From Aldrovandia affinis (taxonomy: Eukaryota; Chordata; Actinopteri; Notacanthiformes; Halosauridae): 64,000 bases of DNA. Under the pieces are notes generated by a model. The model searched no databases. It was not told the DNA's origin and saw only the letters and a program-made list of their open reading frames with translations. Location: the NCBI GenBank assembly GCA_029706075.1, contig JAINUG010000070.1, positions 186,001-250,000 of the forward strand, written 5' to 3'. A program made the position numbers and the translations under genes. The first letter of the stretch is position 1. Each line of letters begins with the position of its first letter. This document shows positions 1-26,390 of this stretch, one piece after another.

Positions 1-3000
1 AAAACTCTTTTCTTGCAGGGGAAACTGGTGGAACATGTTGTTTTCTGAGTATTCTGGCAAAAGGAGGTGTGAAGAATCCTCAGACCACTGTACAAGGCTT
101 TGATAAAGGCAGTGTACATATCTGTGGTAGTACACATACTCGGCACTGCTCTTCAGAAGCTGCCAATAAGGACCCAGAATTTTACAGTAGACAATGGCAA
201 GAACACAAACAAGAGCCTGGACAACCTGATCATTAGCATCATCTCTGACACTTTCCTGAATCACATTCAGCTGGTCAAATGTGGTGGATAGCATAGGATC
301 CAAAAAGAAATGGATGATGTCAGCATAATGGTGAATGAGACCTGCAGCTCCTTCAAAGAAGTTGTTGAAGCGATTGGACTGACTAACAGCTAATCTGGAA
401 GGCTTTTCTCTTGCCTGACAGAAATGAAGCCACTGCTTTCTACAACTGTGCTTTGTTTCACCACGTGGACTCAAGACATCACAGGCCATTCGGACATAGC
501 GTGAAGCTGCACTCTCTGAAAAGTTAACAAAGTTGGAGAACTTAGGATTCTTGTCCCGTCCTAGGTTCTCTCCAGTTGACAAAATAATCTCTCTTTCAAA
601 TGCAAGCATCTGCTGTTCTACTGCATCACTCATCTCATTAAGAAAATGAGCATTGCAGTCAAGAAAATGTACTGGGGAGGTCAGTTTTTGAAACTTCTTG
701 ACCTTCTCATTAAACTCCTTCATGACAGGATCTTCATCCAACATTAACATAAAATGCTTTTGGAGGATATCCTTGGAAACTTGTTTGGATTCTTGGGTTT
801 TCTCTCCATAAACACATGATAGCTTTTGAAGTGAAAGCATAGAAACATCGAGTAAAGTTAAGGCCTCTGCTTTAGGTGCTTCCGGATTTCCTACCGAACC
901 TATAGTTACTGGTCTTGTTGCTTGAGGACGATCATTTGTTGTGGAAACACATTCCTCTTTTACCTCAAGTAAGTTGTTTGGTTGAGAGGACTGAAGCGCA
1001 CTGACTGGTTCAGATTTTACAGGGAACTTCCAAACTTTTTTTGCATTCTCTTCAGACTTCACCTTCAGCTTTATTCCACCATCAGCTTGAGATAAAGAAT
1101 CCCTAAGCATCTCTTTTGGTGTGCCAACGAGGACTTCATTTTCTCCTTGAAATCCTTCTTTCAAATGCACCTCACTCTTCCGGTACTTTGAAAGGAAGTG
1201 TTTCTTCATTCGATTTACACCAAGTGGTTTCCTGATTTGAACATTAAGTGCTTTGGGAACCAGTTCAAATTCAGCCTGAAGAAACTTTTCCATCATACTC
1301 TTTCTCCGGGATCTGCTTCGCTGATACATCCGATAGTTCAACTTAAATTTCTTGAGTTTAGTCTGAAGGACTTTGTTAGCATTCTGAATTTTGCCATCAC
1401 TACAAAACTGTGGATTGAAGTTCCTTAACCAAGACACCAAAACTATTGGGTCCATTTTCTCGCTTGTGACAAAATGGCTTAGTTCCAGTATCAGGCCGTT
1501 TGTGACCTCCGTGCATTTTGCCCGATCAGAAAAGTCTGACATTTCCAATAGATCTGTTCTTCCAATTCCAAGGGTATCACATATTGGACCAACAAATTCC
1601 AAGTTTACATCTGAATCTAGAAAATATTCTCTTGCATCTCCACTCAAACTCGAAGCTATCGCAATGCTCCTTTCAATCAAACTACGGAAATCAGATGAAT
1701 GATGCATGGGGAAGATATTCTGAAGCCATTTAACTACATTTCCCCAAGAAACATGGTTGTCCTCTCTCATAAGTCCCACTTGAACCAACAACCGGTTTTT
1801 GCATGGTCTTAAATCAAAATTTAGGCTCTCTCCACACTGTGATCCCAAGATGTCATCAACAAGTTTCAAGAAGTTGTCATCTCCTAAAAAAACAAAAGAA
1901 AATGTGTCAATTTTAAATGTGAAATACATTTGCACAGGTTTTTTTTTTTTTTTAAAGGTAATTACATTATCTAAATAATTTATTTTACAGGATACAATCT
2001 AGCTTAGAAAAAAAACCTTCCCTCTGGAGTTTAGCCTCAACTTATATCAAAACATTGGATTGGATCATACATGCACATGCACACGCACAACACAAAATGC
2101 AAGTTAAACTGACAAGCCTGTAGTTCCCTGGGTCAAGGGGGACCGTAATGACCCAGAGAACTACCCATAGGCCAATGAGTTTAACTTACATCGAATGTTA
2201 AATACTGGAATGTATTATTTTGGGTTATTATTCAAGTTGGAATTATTCCTTGAAAATAACAGTACCTTAAAAGATAGCAACATTTAATTTTTACAGTGGG
2301 AGGTCATGCCTAATAAATTACCTGGATTTATTTGAGGAAGCTACAAAGTGTTTCGACTCGAACAAGGCTTATGATATTATATGTTTGGACTTCCAAAAAA
2401 CATTTGACAAAGTACAATACGAGAGATACATTGTCAAAATGCAATATGTAGGAATTACATTAAATTGGCTGCAAGGTACAATACAAAGAGTAAATGTAGG
2501 AGGGATCATATTGTACAATGGTGCTCTGGGCAGTGGAGTCCCACAGGGATAAGTGTTGGGACCTCTGATTTTCTTCATTTACATAAATTATCTGGTTAGG
2601 GATCTTAGTAGCAAGATAGTTACATTTGCACAAGACACAAAACCTTTTAGCAAACAGTTTGAAATCTACTAAGGTAATTCAAGAATAATGAAAAGAATCC
2701 ACAAGTGGGCAGAAACCTGACTTGACAGATGATTCAATATAGCTATATAAAGTTCTGCATGTGGGATTTCAAATTTAAGACAGGAGTCTTTTATGGGAGT
2801 AGCAAAATTAGAATGTGTTCAATTTTAAAAAGACTGGGGAGTAGTGGGGGCGGAGAGATTTGATCGAGGCAATTAAATTCATACATAAGTAATATTTTCC
2901 AATGAATGAAGATGAGTAAGGTGGTGTGAGCTAGCCAGTGGTATTTGAACAATACACTTAACATTCTGAACAATGCCCCATTTCATATTGGCAAGGGTTT

Positions 3001-3621
3001 TGATTGTAATATAACAGTCAGGTTTCAGTGAGTGGAGAACAGTTTTATGAGCAAAGAAGTGGAGACAAGTGAGAGGAATACATCTTTGTGAGTACACAGA
3101 AATGTGAGCAACTCAAGAATAGAACTCAAGTGTGAACACTGTAACATGTGCTCACGCTTGGTGGTGGCACACTTACCATTATTGTTTGCAAAGATGGATT
3201 TACAGGTGTTCAAACTTTTTTTATTCATACCTATTTAAAAGCTGACCACATGCTCATTGCACAAAGTTCGATTTACAAATGCTCAAATGTTGCTCAAGGT
3301 CTGACAAGAAAGAAAGACATAAAATAATATATTTCCAAACCATTTTTGGTACTTTCCATCATGTTATTATTTTTATACTCAGACTTGTGATTAAAATAAA
3401 AGCTAAACTGATCATTTCACTCTACTGGTTCTTTAAATGAATAGTTCTTTCAGCATGTCAAAAATTACACAATATGCAGTGGTGTAACAAAGCAGGAACA
3501 ACAATTCCTACATTATTCCTTGTGAAATCAAAATGTTAAACTAATACTCACTCAAATCTTCGGTATCAAGCGGACTGCACCCTTTGTCTCCTGTGAAAGA
3601 GGAGTCTTGCTCTTCATCCAT
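1..3621 (-). CDS. Unrecognised two-exon protein, C-terminus beyond window edge
   Basis: I do not recognise this family. Exon 1 (3621-3552) starts at an ATG opening MDEEQDSS and ends at a consensus donor (A|GTGAGT). Exon 2 starts at 1883 after a pyrimidine tract ending TTTTTTTAG and stays open for 627 codons to base 1. The split codon (A|GA, Arg) joins the exons in one frame, giving 651 visible residues and no stop. The protein begins acidic, has a basic Arg/Ser/Lys patch near 1270-1330, and carries three psi-K-x-E sumoylation-like motifs: VKSE at 1051-1062, VKSE at 1009-1020 and VKEE at 952-963. The downstream half is hydrophobic/aromatic and probably helical. I saw no zinc finger, DDE triad or signal peptide. 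A nuclear protein is an inference. A domesticated transposon protein is possible. The gene model is well supported; the function is unknown. Confidence 0.8.
2352..2640 (+). pseudogene. Non-LTR reverse-transcriptase fragment in intron of the first gene
   Basis: The plus strand reads as a worn reverse-transcriptase core. It has LDFQKTFDKV (finger/palm region), then SGVPQG followed by an in-frame stop and VLGPLIFFIYINYL. The order and spacing match the RT domain of LINEs; [14 protein letters not shown] is the familiar consensus. Only about 100 codons survive and the catalytic YADD is not readable, so it is a dead fragment. It lies antisense inside the intron of the flanking gene. The clade cannot be assigned. 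Confidence 0.75.
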
Positions 3622-5430
3622 TACTGAGCACCAAGATGGATTTGCATGGAACGTAGATATTTAAAACTTCTGGAGGAACAGCAGCTTCCAAATAAAGGTT
3701 GAATCAGTTTTAGTTTGTATCACAGAAACCTAATACATTGTACCATAGTCATTGTCGTTCAAATGTGAATTGTATAAATTCAATGTATTGTAGATAAATA
3801 GATAAATAGATAAAGACAACAAGAGTTGTGTCTACAAATGCAAATTTAGATGGACATTTAAGAAAAATGTGCCGTAGTGCCGAGGTTGTTAGTTTACATG
3901 GCACTCAAGATTTTGTTTGAGGAGGGGGCTCCATATTTACACTCCAATGCTAGGTAATGTAAAAGAGGATGCCGACGTAATGACTCGCAATAATTCCACT
4001 AAATGATAAGCAATGTCATGAGAACACAATGGAACTGTAGCCTTGTTTTGGATTAATGAAAACAATGACAGGAAGGGGGGGGGTCAGGGGAAGGGGCTTA
4101 AGTGGTATGGCAAAATCATAGGTCTGCCACACAACTTTGAAGTGGTATGGCAAAAACAGCTGTGCAACACTATGCAAGGAATTACAACTATGCGATTTGA
4201 AATGAACCAATACCCATATTGGTTATTGCTCTGTTTCCCAGTACAACAAGGGCACAAGAAAATTACCTGGTGATATACAGTTCAGAACACACACAATAGC
4301 TACTGGAGAGAGCGTGGTTCTGTTGCTATATTTGCTGGCCGAAATGTATGAAAGGAAAATTTTACCATGTTGCACTTATAGCCACACATTTTTAAAGGTG
4401 CTGCTTGCATCTCGATTTCACTTGAGAATTGCAAACCATCAATCTCCATCCCTGTCTCAACCTAATACTCTCACCGACACTGGTTCCTTGTTCTCCCATA
4501 GCAAACAAATTATTTCTAGTTTGCAAATCTGCCTCTGAAGTTCTGAAGCTCCGATGTCCCAAATTACTCACTTGTTCCCCTTTTCCAGTTAATACTGTGG
4601 ATATTATATAGTATGGTGGATGTTATATAGGTTTCAAAAACTTACATTATGCTTTTATTTTTTTTGGTTTCTTCCCTTTCTCCTAATTTGGAAGTCTCAA
4701 TTGTGGTTGTAGGCACTTTTCATGGCTGCAACCCTTTCTGTCAGTTGCAGATGGTGCTCAAACATTTGCTCAGCAACATTTTTAAATCAAACATCATGGC
4801 TGTCATGGCTATACGTTGTGTTCTTTCATGACATACACAGTTACTGTTGTGTTCGCGCTGCCCGGGCAGCTAAAAGTTTTACTTTTGAGAAGAGTGATGT
4901 AATCAAAAGCGATATCACTCGATTTCTGAATGGTATTCAAAAATAATAACCATACAGAAGTTATGAACAAACACCTGATAAAATGTAACCGCAATCCACA
5001 CATTACCTTAATTGTAGGCAGTTTTTCTGACAATATGGTGCACGATTCTCATTTTTAAGTTAAAATATTTTCATTGATTGGATAACAAATTGTTAATCAA
5101 GTTACTTGTGCTGTGGAAGTACACAAGGATTCCCTTGAAGAATAATCCCATAACAGTGCACTTTCATGCGCCAACAATAAGAACTGCAAAACATACAAGC
5201 TTGTATAACCAGAACATGCATGCAAGTTGCTATGGCATAACAGAAAGCTGATCCTGAACAAGTGCTTAAGGCACTTCCTCTCCAAATCATGTGCTATTTA
5301 CACTTCCAAGCTAGATGGCAACATAATTTAGGCAGGAGGATATTTGCCAACACCCTTCTATGTGAACAGTCTGTGCCTGCCTGAACTCATGCTGTGGGGA
5401 GGTCGTTTTGTAGGTTTACTTTTGTTATTT
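3622..5430. other. Non-coding stretch upstream of the first gene
   Basis: No gene or transposon was recognised here. The sequence is AT-rich with short ORFs that look random. There is a small GATA-type run near 3795-3812 and a G-run near 4073-4093. Any 5' UTR exon of the first gene would fall here or just beyond. Confidence 0.5.
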
Positions 5431-5976
5431 CCAGCCAGAAATATACTTGATTCGGTGCGGTCACAAACGGCGAGCCCGGTCTCTGTAAACATCAGTGCAT
5501 TAATAGTTGTAGCACTCCAACCAGCGAGGTACGTAGTTACACTCCGAAACAATGGGTGGCGGTATCGATGATTTATAAATGAAGTACCGGAAATACGTAA
5601 AGGAAAACCCGCCTCCATCTTGCTATTCAACCAATCACCGTCTGTGTATCGAACACGGGCTCTTTGGCGCTGTACGCAGCTTAAAAATTTGAGGTGCACG
5701 GGAAAGCAGGCGGACCCCGATTTTTACCGTAATTGCGTTCGCGCAGCCTCTGCACCGTGAAAGCCGGATCTAGCGTAAATCGTGCTTTATAGTTAACACA
5801 GGCTGAAATCCGCTATACATCGGACGAATTCTGCGCAAGTGTATACGGGCCAGCAAGGCAGTAATCCGTATGAAAATGTACTAAATCCTGCGGTGTGTTC
5901 AGACTTTTTTGGCGCACATGCCGCTACTTTTGCTAATATCCCTTTTACACTACAAAATGGCGGATGCCATAAAGGT
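5431..5976. promoter_or_regulatory. Candidate CpG-bearing promoter region
   Basis: CpG dinucleotides become frequent between about 5440 and 5870, in contrast to the flanks. On the plus strand, an ATG in strong context (AAAATGGCGG, at 5956) opens the short frame MADAIK, followed at once by a GTAGGG donor-like site. That is what a first coding exon can look like. No downstream exon was found, so this may be a bidirectional promoter for the minus-strand gene, or chance. Confidence 0.3.
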
Positions 5977-7202
5977 AGGGAAGAGTCATTTAGGACATGG
6001 CCTCAACATTAATGGCCAATACATTAATTTGGCTAACCTTTTACTCCTTTATTTAAACTTTTCAAAACTGCCTCAAGGTAACATTCGTGTTATGCGAATA
6101 CATGTCATGGATACCCACGACTTTCGATCGTTACAATTTCGTGAATGATGTGTGTCGAATGCTTTAAACCCACGAAAACTAGGTGGAGAGAAGTTGCATT
6201 TCGGTGCATGATTTGTTACACCAACGATTGAATCATCGGTAATTAGATGGAAGTTGTATGAGGATAATGATATATCAATAGTGGCATACTATCGAAGTAG
6301 CGTTAGCTAACGTTCGATAGCCTTTTAACAATATAGAAACTAGATAGGAAAAGGAGGGCGAGTACGCAGCTAGTTTGCTAAATAGCTAGATACGTAGCTA
6401 GTAACGTTAGTATGTGTACACATAATCCAATAAACGAACTTTACATTTGTTGGTTGTCATTTTCACCATTGGCTAGCTAGCTAGCTAGTTCGTTATCTAG
6501 GAAGACCATGCCGGGAAACAACATTAGCCAAAAACGTGTTAGAAATGTGACGTCTGTATGAGTTACCTAGTTATTTACGTGAACACTTTTCATGAGCAGC
6601 AGTTATATTTGTAAGTTAACTCTTGAAGACCGCTAACATTAGCACGGTAGCCAACTTTTACATTTTCGAGTGTTAACGTTAAGTAGTGAAATACTTGGGC
6701 TGTTGCTAACATAGCTACCTTCTTGGCTAGTTAACGTGTTAGCTAATGCGATTTTATAATGTGACTCACAATATGTGGTTTGCACACTATTAGCTACTCG
6801 TAACAGAATGAAGGTGTGTTTCCTTACCGCGTCTGTCTTCACAAGGTGTAAAATGCGAGCCCCGAATTCCAAAAGCGCACAACTACTCCTACATCAACGC
6901 ATGCAATCCGCGGGTAGAGACCAGTCCCAGCATAGATCTTCTTCTTGTGGTTTGTGTGGGATACAACGTCACGAGGCATATTGCTGCCACCTACTGGATA
7001 TTCTCGTACTCGGCCTGTGGTATTAAAGGGGCGCCGTAACCCAATAGACGCCCCTTTCTATCACGTAACCGCTGTCCGTATGTTGTGAGAGTGGAGGTGA
7101 CACTGGTAGCTGTGGTTGTCTTTCCTTAGTGGCTCGAACAGCCAGAACCTTTTTCAATTATACCATGCCATTTAGACCAATGGAGTGAAGAAAGTTCCAG
7201 AC
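5977..7202. other. Intergenic DNA, no gene recognised
   Basis: The stretch is AT-rich and full of short GCTAGC/GTTAGC-type words, which are common in teleost intergenic DNA. No protein or RNA gene was recognised. It ends at the target duplication of the next element. Confidence 0.5.
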
Positions 7203-16904: not shown

Positions 16905-17225
16905 CGCGTTGCTCAAACACTTTCAAGTTCCCCGTGTTGGCGAACTGCAAAATCCTTTGAACCTTACAGAAAAATCAGCTAGCTAGCAAGCTCACTCGCT
17001 CAAACACTTTCGAGTTCCCTGTGTTGGCGAACTCACATGTACTGAACAGTCCAGCAAAATCAGCTAGCTAGCAAGCTCACTCACTTGCTCAAACACTTTC
17101 GAATTCCCCGTGTTGGCGAACTCACGTGTACTGAACAGTCCAACAGAATCAGCTAGCTAGCAAGCTCACTCACTTGCTCAAACACTTTCGAATTCCCCGT
17201 GTTGGCGAACTCACGTGTACTACAC
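16905..17225. repeat. Minisatellite, 89-bp unit, about 3.5 copies
   Basis: The unit begins AATCAGCTAGCTAGCAAGC and contains CTCAAACACTTTCGA and GTGTTGGCGAACTCACGTG. Consecutive copies start near 16973, 17056 and 17147, with a diverged partial copy before them. Copies differ by small substitutions and a 6-bp indel. It lies inside the hAT interior. A separate 43-44-bp direct duplication carrying ATTGG/CCAAT words lies at 17532-17618. Confidence 0.85.
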
Positions 17226-21760: not shown

Positions 21761-24650
21761 CCTCTATCACTCCTCTCATTTTCTCTTCCCTCCACTGATT
21801 AATTTATCTTCCTTTCCTTCCACTTTCCTTTTCCTTTCCTCTCTTATCACTTCACTGTCTTGCCTTGTCTTTAGGTGCCATTGTATCTGAAATGAATTTA
21901 AAGATGGTATCAACAACTAGCCTAAACCTACACTGCCTGTCAAAGGTTTGGATAAGCCTGCTTGAAACCATATTATTCATGAATATCCATGCTTGAAATT
22001 ATATAAACTTAACTATAAACGCTTAATACTTAATTATATGGCATATGAACTTGTACATGTGCATATAATCATTAAGTGAATTGCATTCAAAATTGTAATT
22101 TTAAATGAAAATAGCACTGTCCCACTCGACCTGAATGGGAGATAGGTTTTTAGCTGAAAAAAGTGCCCCACTCTAGCTGAAAAACTCTGTTCCATTCAAG
22201 CTATAGCTGTCAAGTAGAGTGGGAGAGTGCTATAAATCAGTTTTTCATAAAATCTAGTGTCAATTTACAAACAATATATATATATATATTTGTTTACATT
22301 ACTGATCACTTTTCATTTAACACCAAAATTAAGGTTGTTGCACAAAAAATGACACATACACAGCCATATCATTTTAGAATAGCTTTCCATATGCCAGCAT
22401 GCTTACCATGTCATTCAACCGCTCAGCCGATTTTAAAAATGAGACCAAGCCCACTACAGTGATGTCACACCAATCAAAACGAACCTCTTACATGTTTAAG
22501 TGAATTTATCAAAAACGCCCAAAAACGACATACCCAAAAGTAAATTAAAGCTGCTCTTCAACCGCTTGCAGTATATGCATGGTTTTGGTCTACACTAACA
22601 AGATAACACTCTGAATTTTTGAATTGCAAAACAGTCAGAATCACTAAGTGCCTCTGGCACTGTGTAATAGTGGTCTGAATGTGCTGAATTTGAAGGATAT
22701 AAATTCCGCCTGGAATTTTTTGTAGAAACAGATGCCTGCAGGTGACTATAGCTGGTAGGTATAAGCTGGAAAACACCATAGGAACATAGCATGAAGTGTT
22801 ACCAAGTTCAGGTTCAAATTTCAGAACAAAACCTCAAAAAATGAACATATTACACAGTTTTTTGAAGGGTACCACCAGGCGTTCCCAAACTGTGCCATTT
22901 GGAGACTCCAAAGGGGCCTTTTCTTTCTTGTCTGAACAAATACAATTTTGAAATAAAAATAAAATTTGCATTCAAAAAGTATAGAGCATAAATAAAACAC
23001 AGCAAACATGAACTATTTACAAAATCCCTGAGTGAGGTTATAGTGTCCTTTCTGTATTCTTTTTTACAGCTCATCTCACATCAGCAGTTCAGTCACACAA
23101 TGAAACACAAAGGGGGGGAAGACACACATACACTTTCACACTTCCCTAGTCAAACAAAAGAGCGAGGGCACAAAGGGGGGGGGGGACACACACAGCACAC
23201 ACATACAATTCACACTTCACAGTCAAACAAAAGACAAACACAGGCACAGACTAATTTATAAGAAACTACCTTTTAGAAGTTAGTTTCACTTCACAGTCAA
23301 ACAAAAGACTAAACTATAGTTTATTTATGTCAAAATATACAACAATATATGTTATAATATAATGAAATACTTGAATATTTCAAATTTTCACTCCGTTTCG
23401 CCATTACTAGATTATTCGCATAGCTGCGTAATCATAGGGATGCGCAATTACGCGTGGCCACTGGTACAATAAACCTATCCAGAAGTGAGTTTATATAGGA
23501 CCGCTCAACCAACCAAATGTCGTTAGCTCATTGGATTAGCTAAACAATGATATGTGTCAGTTATCAGCTAAATCGGCTTCGATTTGATAAGGCTATCGTA
23601 AATCAAAGATAAGAAGGTAATCGCGGTGAACACAGACACGCATTGGCTATTGACGGCTATTGAGGCCGCTTGGGAGCTCCTATTTGGTCAAATGAGGTGT
23701 CATTCAAAAGGTCAGACCTGTCAGACATTTTTGTAGTAAAATATGGTAATTCTGAGATCCTGACCCGGAGTTAGAAGCTGAAAACTTGCAAGATTACGCA
23801 TGTCTGTAGTGAAGCGCGTATTTTTGCTCCAGCGGTTCCTGCGTGTTTTTGAAGGAAAAATGAGGTTTGGACTATATATTTTACTGGATTGGATCGCCTG
23901 GACTCTTTGCCAATGTCACATAAGCGTTTTAGTCGGATTGTAATCGATCGGTGGATTACAATATGAATTTATAGGTGAGTTGACTAGAATTTTTTTCGTT
24001 TGTTGGTTTGTTGTAGGTCTGACATAGCGGCTGATTGTACCTGCTGTTGTGATCTTATCTTGGAATAGTTTATATCATTCGAATCACAAGAATCGTAGCT
24101 TTCTAGCCATATAAGGCATGTGCACTTTTGTTAACGTAACTTTTCTGTATTTGGCCGAATTCGCGCAGATCGTATCTATGTCCCGCCGGCGGGACGTCCG
24201 ATTTTTAAAAGGTTTTATGTTCAGCACCTATACAGCTACAATTCAGTAACATCTGGTCAATGAGCTGTTGGTCGACAGAGATTTGTTTTGGTCGAGCAGT
24301 CACGTGGAAAAAATATTTAAAAACTTCTCCACGCAGCATGAGACACCTAGATTCGCTCCACGGTTCAGCGCGCTTGTCAGTATAATAATCCATTATGGAT
24401 GCTGTGGGTATGGCAGTGACAGTCCTTCACTCTTAACATAGCTAGGCTTATATATGTTCTCTTTAAATTATATTAGGCATTTAAGGTAATAATAATGTGA
24501 ATAATTCAGCAAAACTAATAAAAGTAACATTTTATAATAAATGTGTTTTGCTAATTGTATGGTTTATATATTTATAACTAACATGCGTAACACCCCTTTT
24601 CATGTAGCCTATATTGTATCCTTCTTGTTTTAGACACGCGAATGTGCATT
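21761..24650. other. Repeat-rich non-coding stretch
   Basis: No gene was recognised. Near 22105-22230, two GTAGAGTGGGACAG-like words on the minus strand mirror the pair at 19090-19135, and may be the outer ends of the pogo element. A short AT run lies at 22277-22290 and a purine/CA-rich patch at 23105-23260. CpGs become commoner at 23400-23960, with the foldback-like pair TCGGATTGTAATCGATCG and GTGGATTACAATATG near 23930-23965. About 30 bases near 24270-24300 resemble the end of the BED-hAT at 26335-26375. Confidence 0.45.
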
Positions 24651-24653
24651 TTA

Positions 24654-25634
24654 ATTGACCCATCGCTAAGGCCCGCCCCCCTTAGTTACTGTTGCTAAGC
24701 CCGTCAAGCTTTCGGAGCCAGCATGGCGCTCCCACTGTCGCTAACTGCACTCCCTGGAGAAATATTGTCCAATTTTTGGAAAAACGAAAAAACTATTTCA
24801 GACAGAAGCAGACAGAAGGGTCTACAAAATGCATTTGAAGGATATATTCAGGATGTCAAACTGACTCAGCAACGAAATCACGTAAAAAAAATAAAGATAG
24901 AACCACCGCATCACCGGGCGATTGAGACAAAGGACAACGACATTAAGGAGCAACACTGTTCCTGTAAAGCTGGGTAGGTCTCTATTCACTATTACAATCA
25001 TTAAAAAGCAGAAGCAGTAGGCCTATATAAAGTTACATTCAGTAGTAAGTTAGCTAGCATTAGCTAACTAACGTAACATTAGTAGCCTATAGTGTGCTGT
25101 AACGACATTACTCTGGTTAGCTCCACAGGTTTCTGCACCCATCTCATCGGACTTATCCATACCCTGGACCTCTGTAAAGGAAAAAATATCAGCAGTGTGT
25201 CAGCCCAGTCCTCCACAAGCTTGCCACAACAGTGGCATAAGCCAAGGGATGTAAAAATAATACCACAGCCCGTAACAGCTGTTGTGGTGGCAAAGGCCAA
25301 GACGAACCGACGTTAGTAGCGTACTTTACGATAATTTAGGTTAACCAGCTAACATCTGATAACAACAGCATAACATTATTTTACGGTTGATAAGAGTAAT
25401 TACTACCTTGGAGCAGACAAAGCTGTGCTTGTTGATCTTTGAGGTGTTCAACTGGGTATGAGGACGTCCACATAGCTTTATCCACAGCCTACACTTTTCA
25501 GGGTTTGATTTTGGTTTTGGAAAGGGAAAAAAAACGTATATCTCCTTCCAACCTCTCCGGGTAACGAGTGTCTCCTGTGCTGCGTTGTGATTGGTCAGTC
25601 TGCGTTTCGGGGGCGTGGCTTAGCAAAGGGTCAG
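24654..25634 (+). mobile_element. Putative DNA element carrying a SWIM-finger gene module
   Basis: Imperfect inverted repeats bracket the SWIM module: TTGACCCATCGCTAAGGCCC near 24654 and, inverted, CTGACCCTTTGCTAAGCCAC near 25634, each followed inward by GCCCCC. About 20 of 25 positions agree. The left end abuts TTAA, but no clear target duplication is visible at the right. The pair suggests a transposon of about 1 kb carrying two exons; superfamily unknown. The inverted repeats could be chance GC-rich promoter elements. Confidence 0.45.
24723..25316 (+). CDS. SWIM zinc-finger protein fragment, two exons
   Basis: Exon 1 (24723-24973) opens MALPLSLTALPGEILSNFW and ends at GG|GTAGGT. With the acceptor TTAG at 25117-25120, exon 2 (25121-25316) continues in frame. 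The junction reads CSCKAG-STGFCTHLIGLIHTL, a SWIM zinc finger (CxC-x7-CxH). It is followed by SSTSLPQQWHKPR, a block I associate with fish SWIM-plus-YqaJ-nuclease proteins. The frame stops at 25314-25316 after about 149 residues, but GTTAGT at 25310 could be a donor to a lost exon. No YqaJ nuclease domain is present downstream. SWIM fingers bind DNA or protein; the role here is unknown. Confidence 0.6.
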
Positions 25635-25714
25635 TAGCCTAAGATTTGCCTACAGTTAAGATTAGTGATATACGCATCCTTTAATTACTCATTCCGATAT
25701 AACCTAAGAACATA

Positions 25715-26390
25715 ATGTCAAAGAAAAAATCTGGAGTTTGGCAGCATTTCGTTTTAATCGCAGACGATCCCAAAAAAGTGGAATGTAAACTTTGCAAGCG
25801 TGTTTTCCAAGGCAGGGTTTATCGTTAATAAGACGAGGAGCAGCCTTTTGCCAAAAAATGTGGACAAGCTAGTGTTCCTGTGCCATAATATGAAACGACT
25901 GGGAAAGTAGGCCATCGGTTAAGACATTAGGCTATGTGTGATCATTCGTTTGTTAGCCTATTTTTTTGCAAAATAGATTTTAGATCCCAATGAGACCAAC
26001 CTGGTTAATTAAATAAAACATAGCCTACGCATTAGAACGTGTTATGGTTGTGGTCAAATAAAAGCATCAGCCTATTATGTGGCCATACCGCAACTTCACA
26101 AGCCCAAAGGCAGAATCTGCAAGGGCAGCATGAAGAGGGTTTTTTTTCCTTTCAAGTAATCCCTGAACTACAGCTCCATAAAGTTATTAGCCTATTGTTA
26201 GTCATTTGTGTCATTCACTTAAGAAAGTTATAAAACATGAGACAAGCGCAGTGTACATATGGTTGTATTTATTCAAACAAATAGGGTGTGTCATATAGAA
26301 GAAGAAAAAAGTTTCAACCAATCGTAAAAAACTGACGACTGTTGGTCGACCAAGATTTGTTTTAGTTGGGGACAGCCCTAAAAGGTACTG
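25715..26390 (+). mobile_element. BED-finger hAT deletion derivative
   Basis: An ATG at 25715 opens MSKKKSGVWQHF, then DPKKVECKLCKRVF, the first half of a BED zinc finger as found at the N-terminus of many hAT transposases. The frame stops at 25826. In another frame, 25848-25910 reads LPKNVDKLVFLCHNMKRLGK and a stop, the usual hAT C-terminal tail. The catalytic core has been deleted between them. The right terminus (26335-26380), read inward on the minus strand, is AGGGCTGTCCCCAACTAAAA then TCTTGGTCGACCAACAG, a terminus type common in fish hATs. The left end is not clear. Confidence 0.7.

Follow-up and report, generated by a model that had tools for sequence, protein, structure and literature searches.

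The window analysed here, a stretch of 64,000 nucleotides from the genome of Aldrovandia affinis, contains at positions 24656-25633 on the plus strand a 978-bp copy of a mobile element that is almost certainly a non-autonomous, internally deleted cut-and-paste DNA transposon of the ISL2EU type. As a derivative of a known fish transposon type that carries the stubs of two genes, the element is ordinary; the full-length relatives found elsewhere in the genome, whose two genes appear to be interleaved, are more unusual.

Boundaries and copies of the element

A search of the 1.22-Gb source genome with window positions 24600-25700 gave 2496 first-look candidates, and all 40 that were scored matched the query, the window itself counted. 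Boundaries were analysed in 38 copies fetched from the other 39 matching places. The first matched piece begins at query position 46-60 in 35 of these, the match starting later in L043, L044 and L045; at the other side a matched piece ends at query 1024-1034 in 32 copies, and matched pieces end at query 973 in six (L011, L019, L025, L032, L038 and L042). No match in any of the 38 fetched copies runs beyond query position 1034 (of 1101). Query positions 57 and 1034 are the outermost bases of TGACCC and GGGTCA, the two mirror-image words that the initial annotation had tentatively read as the ends of an element bearing a SWIM zinc-finger gene. Similarity among the copies thus stops where that annotation had proposed to look, and the two words turn out to be the outer part of a terminal inverted repeat of 25 bp. 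Its arms agree at 21 of 25 positions, compared with a best score of 17/25 among 60 random pairs of window pieces taken at the same spacing, and a pattern scan of the window brought up no further word of this kind. The distances quoted for the words (about 70 bases upstream of the ATG and about 290 after the stop) are close to those measured, 67 and ~300 bases respectively. Thirty-five copies gave a majority consensus of 1155 bp. At one locus (L024, C757:738700-741228) a short element has a second, partial, inverted copy beside it.

Target preference and empty sites

The copies share a target. Among the 34 of the 38 fetched copies with both ends placeable, 30 are preceded by AAT and followed by ATT, the four departing flanks being AAT/CGC, ATT/ATT, AAT/ATC and AAC/ATT, one each. 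For ISL2EU, PMC4482050 gives the target as A|AT|T with duplication of AT. The window copy itself is without the right target half ATT, and its terminal GGGTCA runs directly into GTAGCC. It lies within another repeat, of which copies lacking the insertion are at hand: a search with the right flank produced 1295 first-look candidates, of which 40 were scored and 11 host-repeat paralogues were cut out and examined. In ten of these eleven the two flanks of the window copy are contiguous or a few bases apart; the eleventh, L053, has a different upstream sequence. The site reads AATT in eight of the ten, AGTT in L048 and AATC in L050, and AATTGTAGCC is the reading in most empty-site paralogues. Flanks and empty sites agree with duplication of AT in an A|AT|T site, a 4-bp reading being possible as well: because the TGACCC...GGGTCA ends sit in AATT, duplications of 2 bp (AT) and of 4 bp (AATT) are indistinguishable at perfect sites. 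Copy L029, flanked by AAT/ATC, favours the 2-bp duplication, unless its flank mutated later. The mobility previously suggested for the element is supported by its multiple copies and by the empty site.

The host repeat contains a zf-BED fragment at 25715-25825 (E 3.1e-5) and is presumably hAT-like, its right end resembling a hAT end; a search for paired ends of this repeat yielded no more than a 9-base match between the two end regions. Elsewhere the window holds a tandem array with an 89-bp unit in 3.5 copies (16909-17221) and several short AACCCT/CCTAAC-like arrays, internal to the contig (53176-53709).

Table 1. Features of the element and its surroundings (window coordinates), and transposase exons of the full-length relative at locus L089 (locus coordinates)
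Feature	Position	Strand	Basis or remark
Host repeat holding the inserted element	24254-26380 (approx.)	.	Flank search and empty sites
Left half of A|AT|T target (AAT)	24653-24655	.	Read from empty-site paralogues
Left terminal inverted repeat	24656-24680	+	21/25 vs right end
SWIM gene exon 1	24723-24973	+	33 bp (in frame) shorter than consensus
SWIM gene intron	24974-25120	+	GT...AG at same columns in 35/35 aligned copies
SWIM gene exon 2	25121-25316	+	Completes CxCx7CxH finger; truncated by the deletion common to the family
Internal-deletion junction of the family (approximate)	25311-25319	.	Consensus 688-698
Stub of THAP transposase exon 1	25407-25571	-	Pfam THAP; consensus exon
Right terminal inverted repeat	25609-25633	-	21/25 vs left end
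L089 transposase exons 1-5	1791-1991, 2248-2351, 2677-2786, 3697-3889, 3932-4778		GT...AG at each junction

Two gene stubs

The two exons of the SWIM gene splice in frame through GT...AG, as had been proposed, and give a joined product of 148 amino acids. The SWIM zinc finger is defined by the pattern CxCx(n)CxH, which the product contains as CSCKAGSTGFCTH. Of the canonical finger announced in the initial annotation the CxCx7CxH motif stands; since no Pfam family is hit at E<=1 by the joined product, the name SWIM is owed to that pattern. Exon 2 ends in a stop just beyond the deletion breakpoint, and the frame is open for 159 codons in the consensus. Seven of 35 copies, the window copy included, keep it intact. 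Unique substitutions in the frame are synonymous in 63 of 226 cases, where 61.5 +/- 6.6 are expected if the changes are redrawn at random among like bases, and the ratio of nonsynonymous to synonymous change per site is 0.90. Change in the SWIM frame is consistent with neutrality, and a test for selection across the 35 copies saw none. Since its frame changes neutrally, the SWIM stub of the short element is probably not a working gene.

A second stub, overlooked in the initial annotation, belongs to a THAP transposase. The minus strand at 25341-25619 reads a partial THAP domain (Pfam E 4.1e-5, narrowly above the curated cut-off), and the consensus exon reads MVKRCAWGTC...CSK followed by GTAAGT (E 3.4e-7, 31.4 bits). 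A 145-bp deletion at ~25572/25573 took the start and the first cysteines of this exon from the window copy, which is not among the 21 of 35 copies in which the exon is open. The per-site ratio of nonsynonymous to synonymous change in the THAP exon is 2.35.

Full-length relatives and the internal deletion

When the genome was searched for DDE_Tnp_4, 152 matches came up and 30 loci were cut out; SWIM-like sequence is present in three of them (L068, L070 and L077). Extension of L070 to L089 (C1799:617500-627400) uncovered at 1621-6803 (C1799:619120-624302) an element of 5183 bp that has the same ends as the short form and the flanks AAT/ATA. Its THAP exon 1 lies under the curated cut-off of 23.9 bits (E 3.4e-4, 21.8 bits). 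HTH_Tnp_4 (1.4e-12) is found together with DDE_Tnp_4 (3.5e-40) at 3906-4775, and the SWIM exons lie on the opposite strand, as does a YqaJ exon (2935-3597; 1.7e-21). The copy in C1136 (L093, C1136:733650-739150) is 4923 bp long, has the same ends, is flanked by AAT/ATT and matches YqaJ at E 1e-21; of 11 exon-edge motifs from L089 it shows 10, a SWIM donor being the exception. Both copies are blemished: in L089 some 335 bp absent from the consensus interrupt SWIM exon 1 and the YqaJ frame is broken near its end, and in the C1136 copy the transposase frame is broken within the DDE exon.

The short-form consensus matches the end regions of these two elements and not their middles. Consensus 1-688 (as pieces 1-324 and 320-688) is 82% and 96% identical to the right-end region of L089 and consensus 698-1155 is 88% identical to the left-end region; the C1136 copy is matched at 89% by both consensus 1-688 and consensus 701-1155. 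About 3.7 kb is present at the deletion junction in the full-length relative. Because only both end regions are matched, the short form is structurally an internal deletion of such a full-length element; because identity to the consensus is only 82-89% (96% in part of L089), neither full-length copy is its direct parent. The initial annotation had offered a choice between a mobile SWIM gene that is cargo and one that belongs to the transposon itself; the full-length relatives, with the same ends and a YqaJ exon downstream of the SWIM exons and in frame with them, decide for the latter. The SWIM gene of the window is the truncated second gene of the transposon, and the YqaJ nuclease exons suspected to have been lost are indeed present in the full-length relatives and gone from the window copy.

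Probable interleaving of genes in the full-length relatives

The five transposase exons of L089 (201, 104, 110, 193 and 847 bases) join into one open frame of 484 codons plus stop, and the first four exons of the C1136 copy likewise join openly over 202 codons. On the opposite strand of L089, SWIM exon 2 (to ~5729), a middle exon (5377-5233) and the YqaJ exon (from 3597) run for 345 codons without a stop, as they do in C1136. Transposase exons 3 and 4 lie on either side of the YqaJ exon, and the interval from the middle exon to the YqaJ exon holds transposase exons 4 and 5. From splice signals and phases that fit on both strands, the full-length relatives are likely to be an ISL2EU lineage with two opposing, interdigitated genes, the YqaJ exon lying inside a transposase intron and the last two transposase exons, including DDE, within a SWIM-YqaJ intron.

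Judged by match positions alone, the same geometry recurs in all four close-family loci that have both exons (C1799:620k, C1799:5k, C1136:736k and C127:29k), where YqaJ lies 5' of DDE on the opposite strand, ~300-309 bases apart. By the same measure, all eight more distant loci with both exons (C1324, C343, two in C1997, C2051, C846, C1989 and C125, the exons of the last ~3.7 kb apart) have the plain convergent order. A tandem duplication of a [DDE> <YqaJ] block, with complementary loss afterwards, could account for the interleaved order. If the interleaving is real, excising either gene would disrupt the other as well, so that nuclease and transposase would be bound together. A thin literature search for interleaved genes in DNA transposons found none, and one for interdigitated genes and exons brought up a single paper, on ParaHox clusters by its title.

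Origin of the short element and alternative readings

A full-length element of ~5 kb has two genes, one for a THAP/HTH/DDE_Tnp_4 transposase and the other for a SWIM-YqaJ protein, each beginning close to a different end and running towards the middle. The short form lost ~3.7 kb from the middle but retained both ends, together with transposase exon 1 and the first two SWIM exons, the second of them cut short; its SWIM frame ends immediately beyond the breakpoint, and its THAP exon leads nowhere. Transposase supplied by full-length relatives may have recognised the ends that remained and in this way carried the short form to further A|AT|T sites.

It is very unlikely that the truncated SWIM gene is instead kept by selection, with a short SWIM peptide, and perhaps a THAP one, binding the element ends and either repressing or helping transposition. 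The model for such a role is KP, the truncated product of the P element. The deletion did spare the exons for the two fingers predicted to bind DNA, the SWIM frame of the consensus is open over its 159 codons with GT...AG retained in every aligned copy, and the THAP exon is open in the majority of copies noted above. Set against this, few copies keep the SWIM frame, its substitutions fit neutrality, the ratios for the SWIM frame and the THAP exon are 0.90 and 2.35, and the start exons of both genes adjoin the ends, so that an internal deletion retains them without selection.

The THAP domain also occurs in the P and Kolobok superfamilies, and an assignment to one of these rather than to ISL2EU might be considered; we regard it as highly improbable, since the catalytic exon with DDE_Tnp_4 and HTH_Tnp_4, together with YqaJ in the second gene, forms the ISL2EU pair and the target AATT differs from the sites of both superfamilies, an 8-bp site for P and TTAA for Kolobok. 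A host SWIM gene, single-copy or tandem, with unrelated flanking repeats has next to no probability, for although the window copy has two exons with good splice sites and an unbroken frame, the sequence recurs at 40 sharply bounded places, most of them flanked by AAT/ATT, its flanks are contiguous in 10 of 11 host-repeat paralogues and its full-length relatives carry a transposase. The host-gene reading and that of chance repeats were dropped on the evidence of copies, flanks, empty sites and the random-pair control.

Implications

The idea that a transposon could account for multicopy SWIM genes in fish fits the source genome, where the multicopy, intron-containing pieces of SWIM genes are transposon debris. 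Counts of SWIM/YqaJ genes in similar genomes should be made with ISL2EU masked beforehand. With its apparently interleaved genes, the full-length relative lends itself to testing how an accessory nuclease gene stays linked to the transposase of the element that carries it.

Comparison with known transposons

The two-gene make-up of ISL2EU (PHIS superfamily), with YqaJ, is described in PMC9179366, which deals with teleosts, and in PMC4482050. The full-length relatives share this make-up. A DDE_Tnp_4 transposase with HTH and THAP is present in L089 (its THAP exon under the cut-off) and survives in the window as the THAP stub only, and a second gene with a YqaJ nuclease domain is present in L089 and L093 and lost from the window copy. 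Terminal inverted repeats and an A|AT|T target with AT duplication are further points of likeness, as are lengths of 4923 and 5183 bp against a published mean of ~4840 bp. Unlike most ISL2EU elements, those described here have ends that start with TG instead of GG; PMC4482050 calls the GG start usual, and it was not treated here as defining. Their second protein carries a SWIM-like finger, and in the full-length copies their two genes appear to interleave. The word SWIM is absent from the main text of PMC4482050 and PMC9179366, and in the available part of PMC4746887 the letters stand for Swimmer elements and the swim bladder. Literature searches for SWIM with YqaJ and transposon returned nothing on topic by title, and for SWIM zinc finger with Zisupton nothing at all. 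Non-autonomous internal-deletion derivatives of DNA transposons keep both ends and lose the middle. The window element does the same, and its short form is apparently commoner in this genome than the full-length one; it differs from such derivatives in that recognisable first exons of both parental genes are kept, one of them with its intron.
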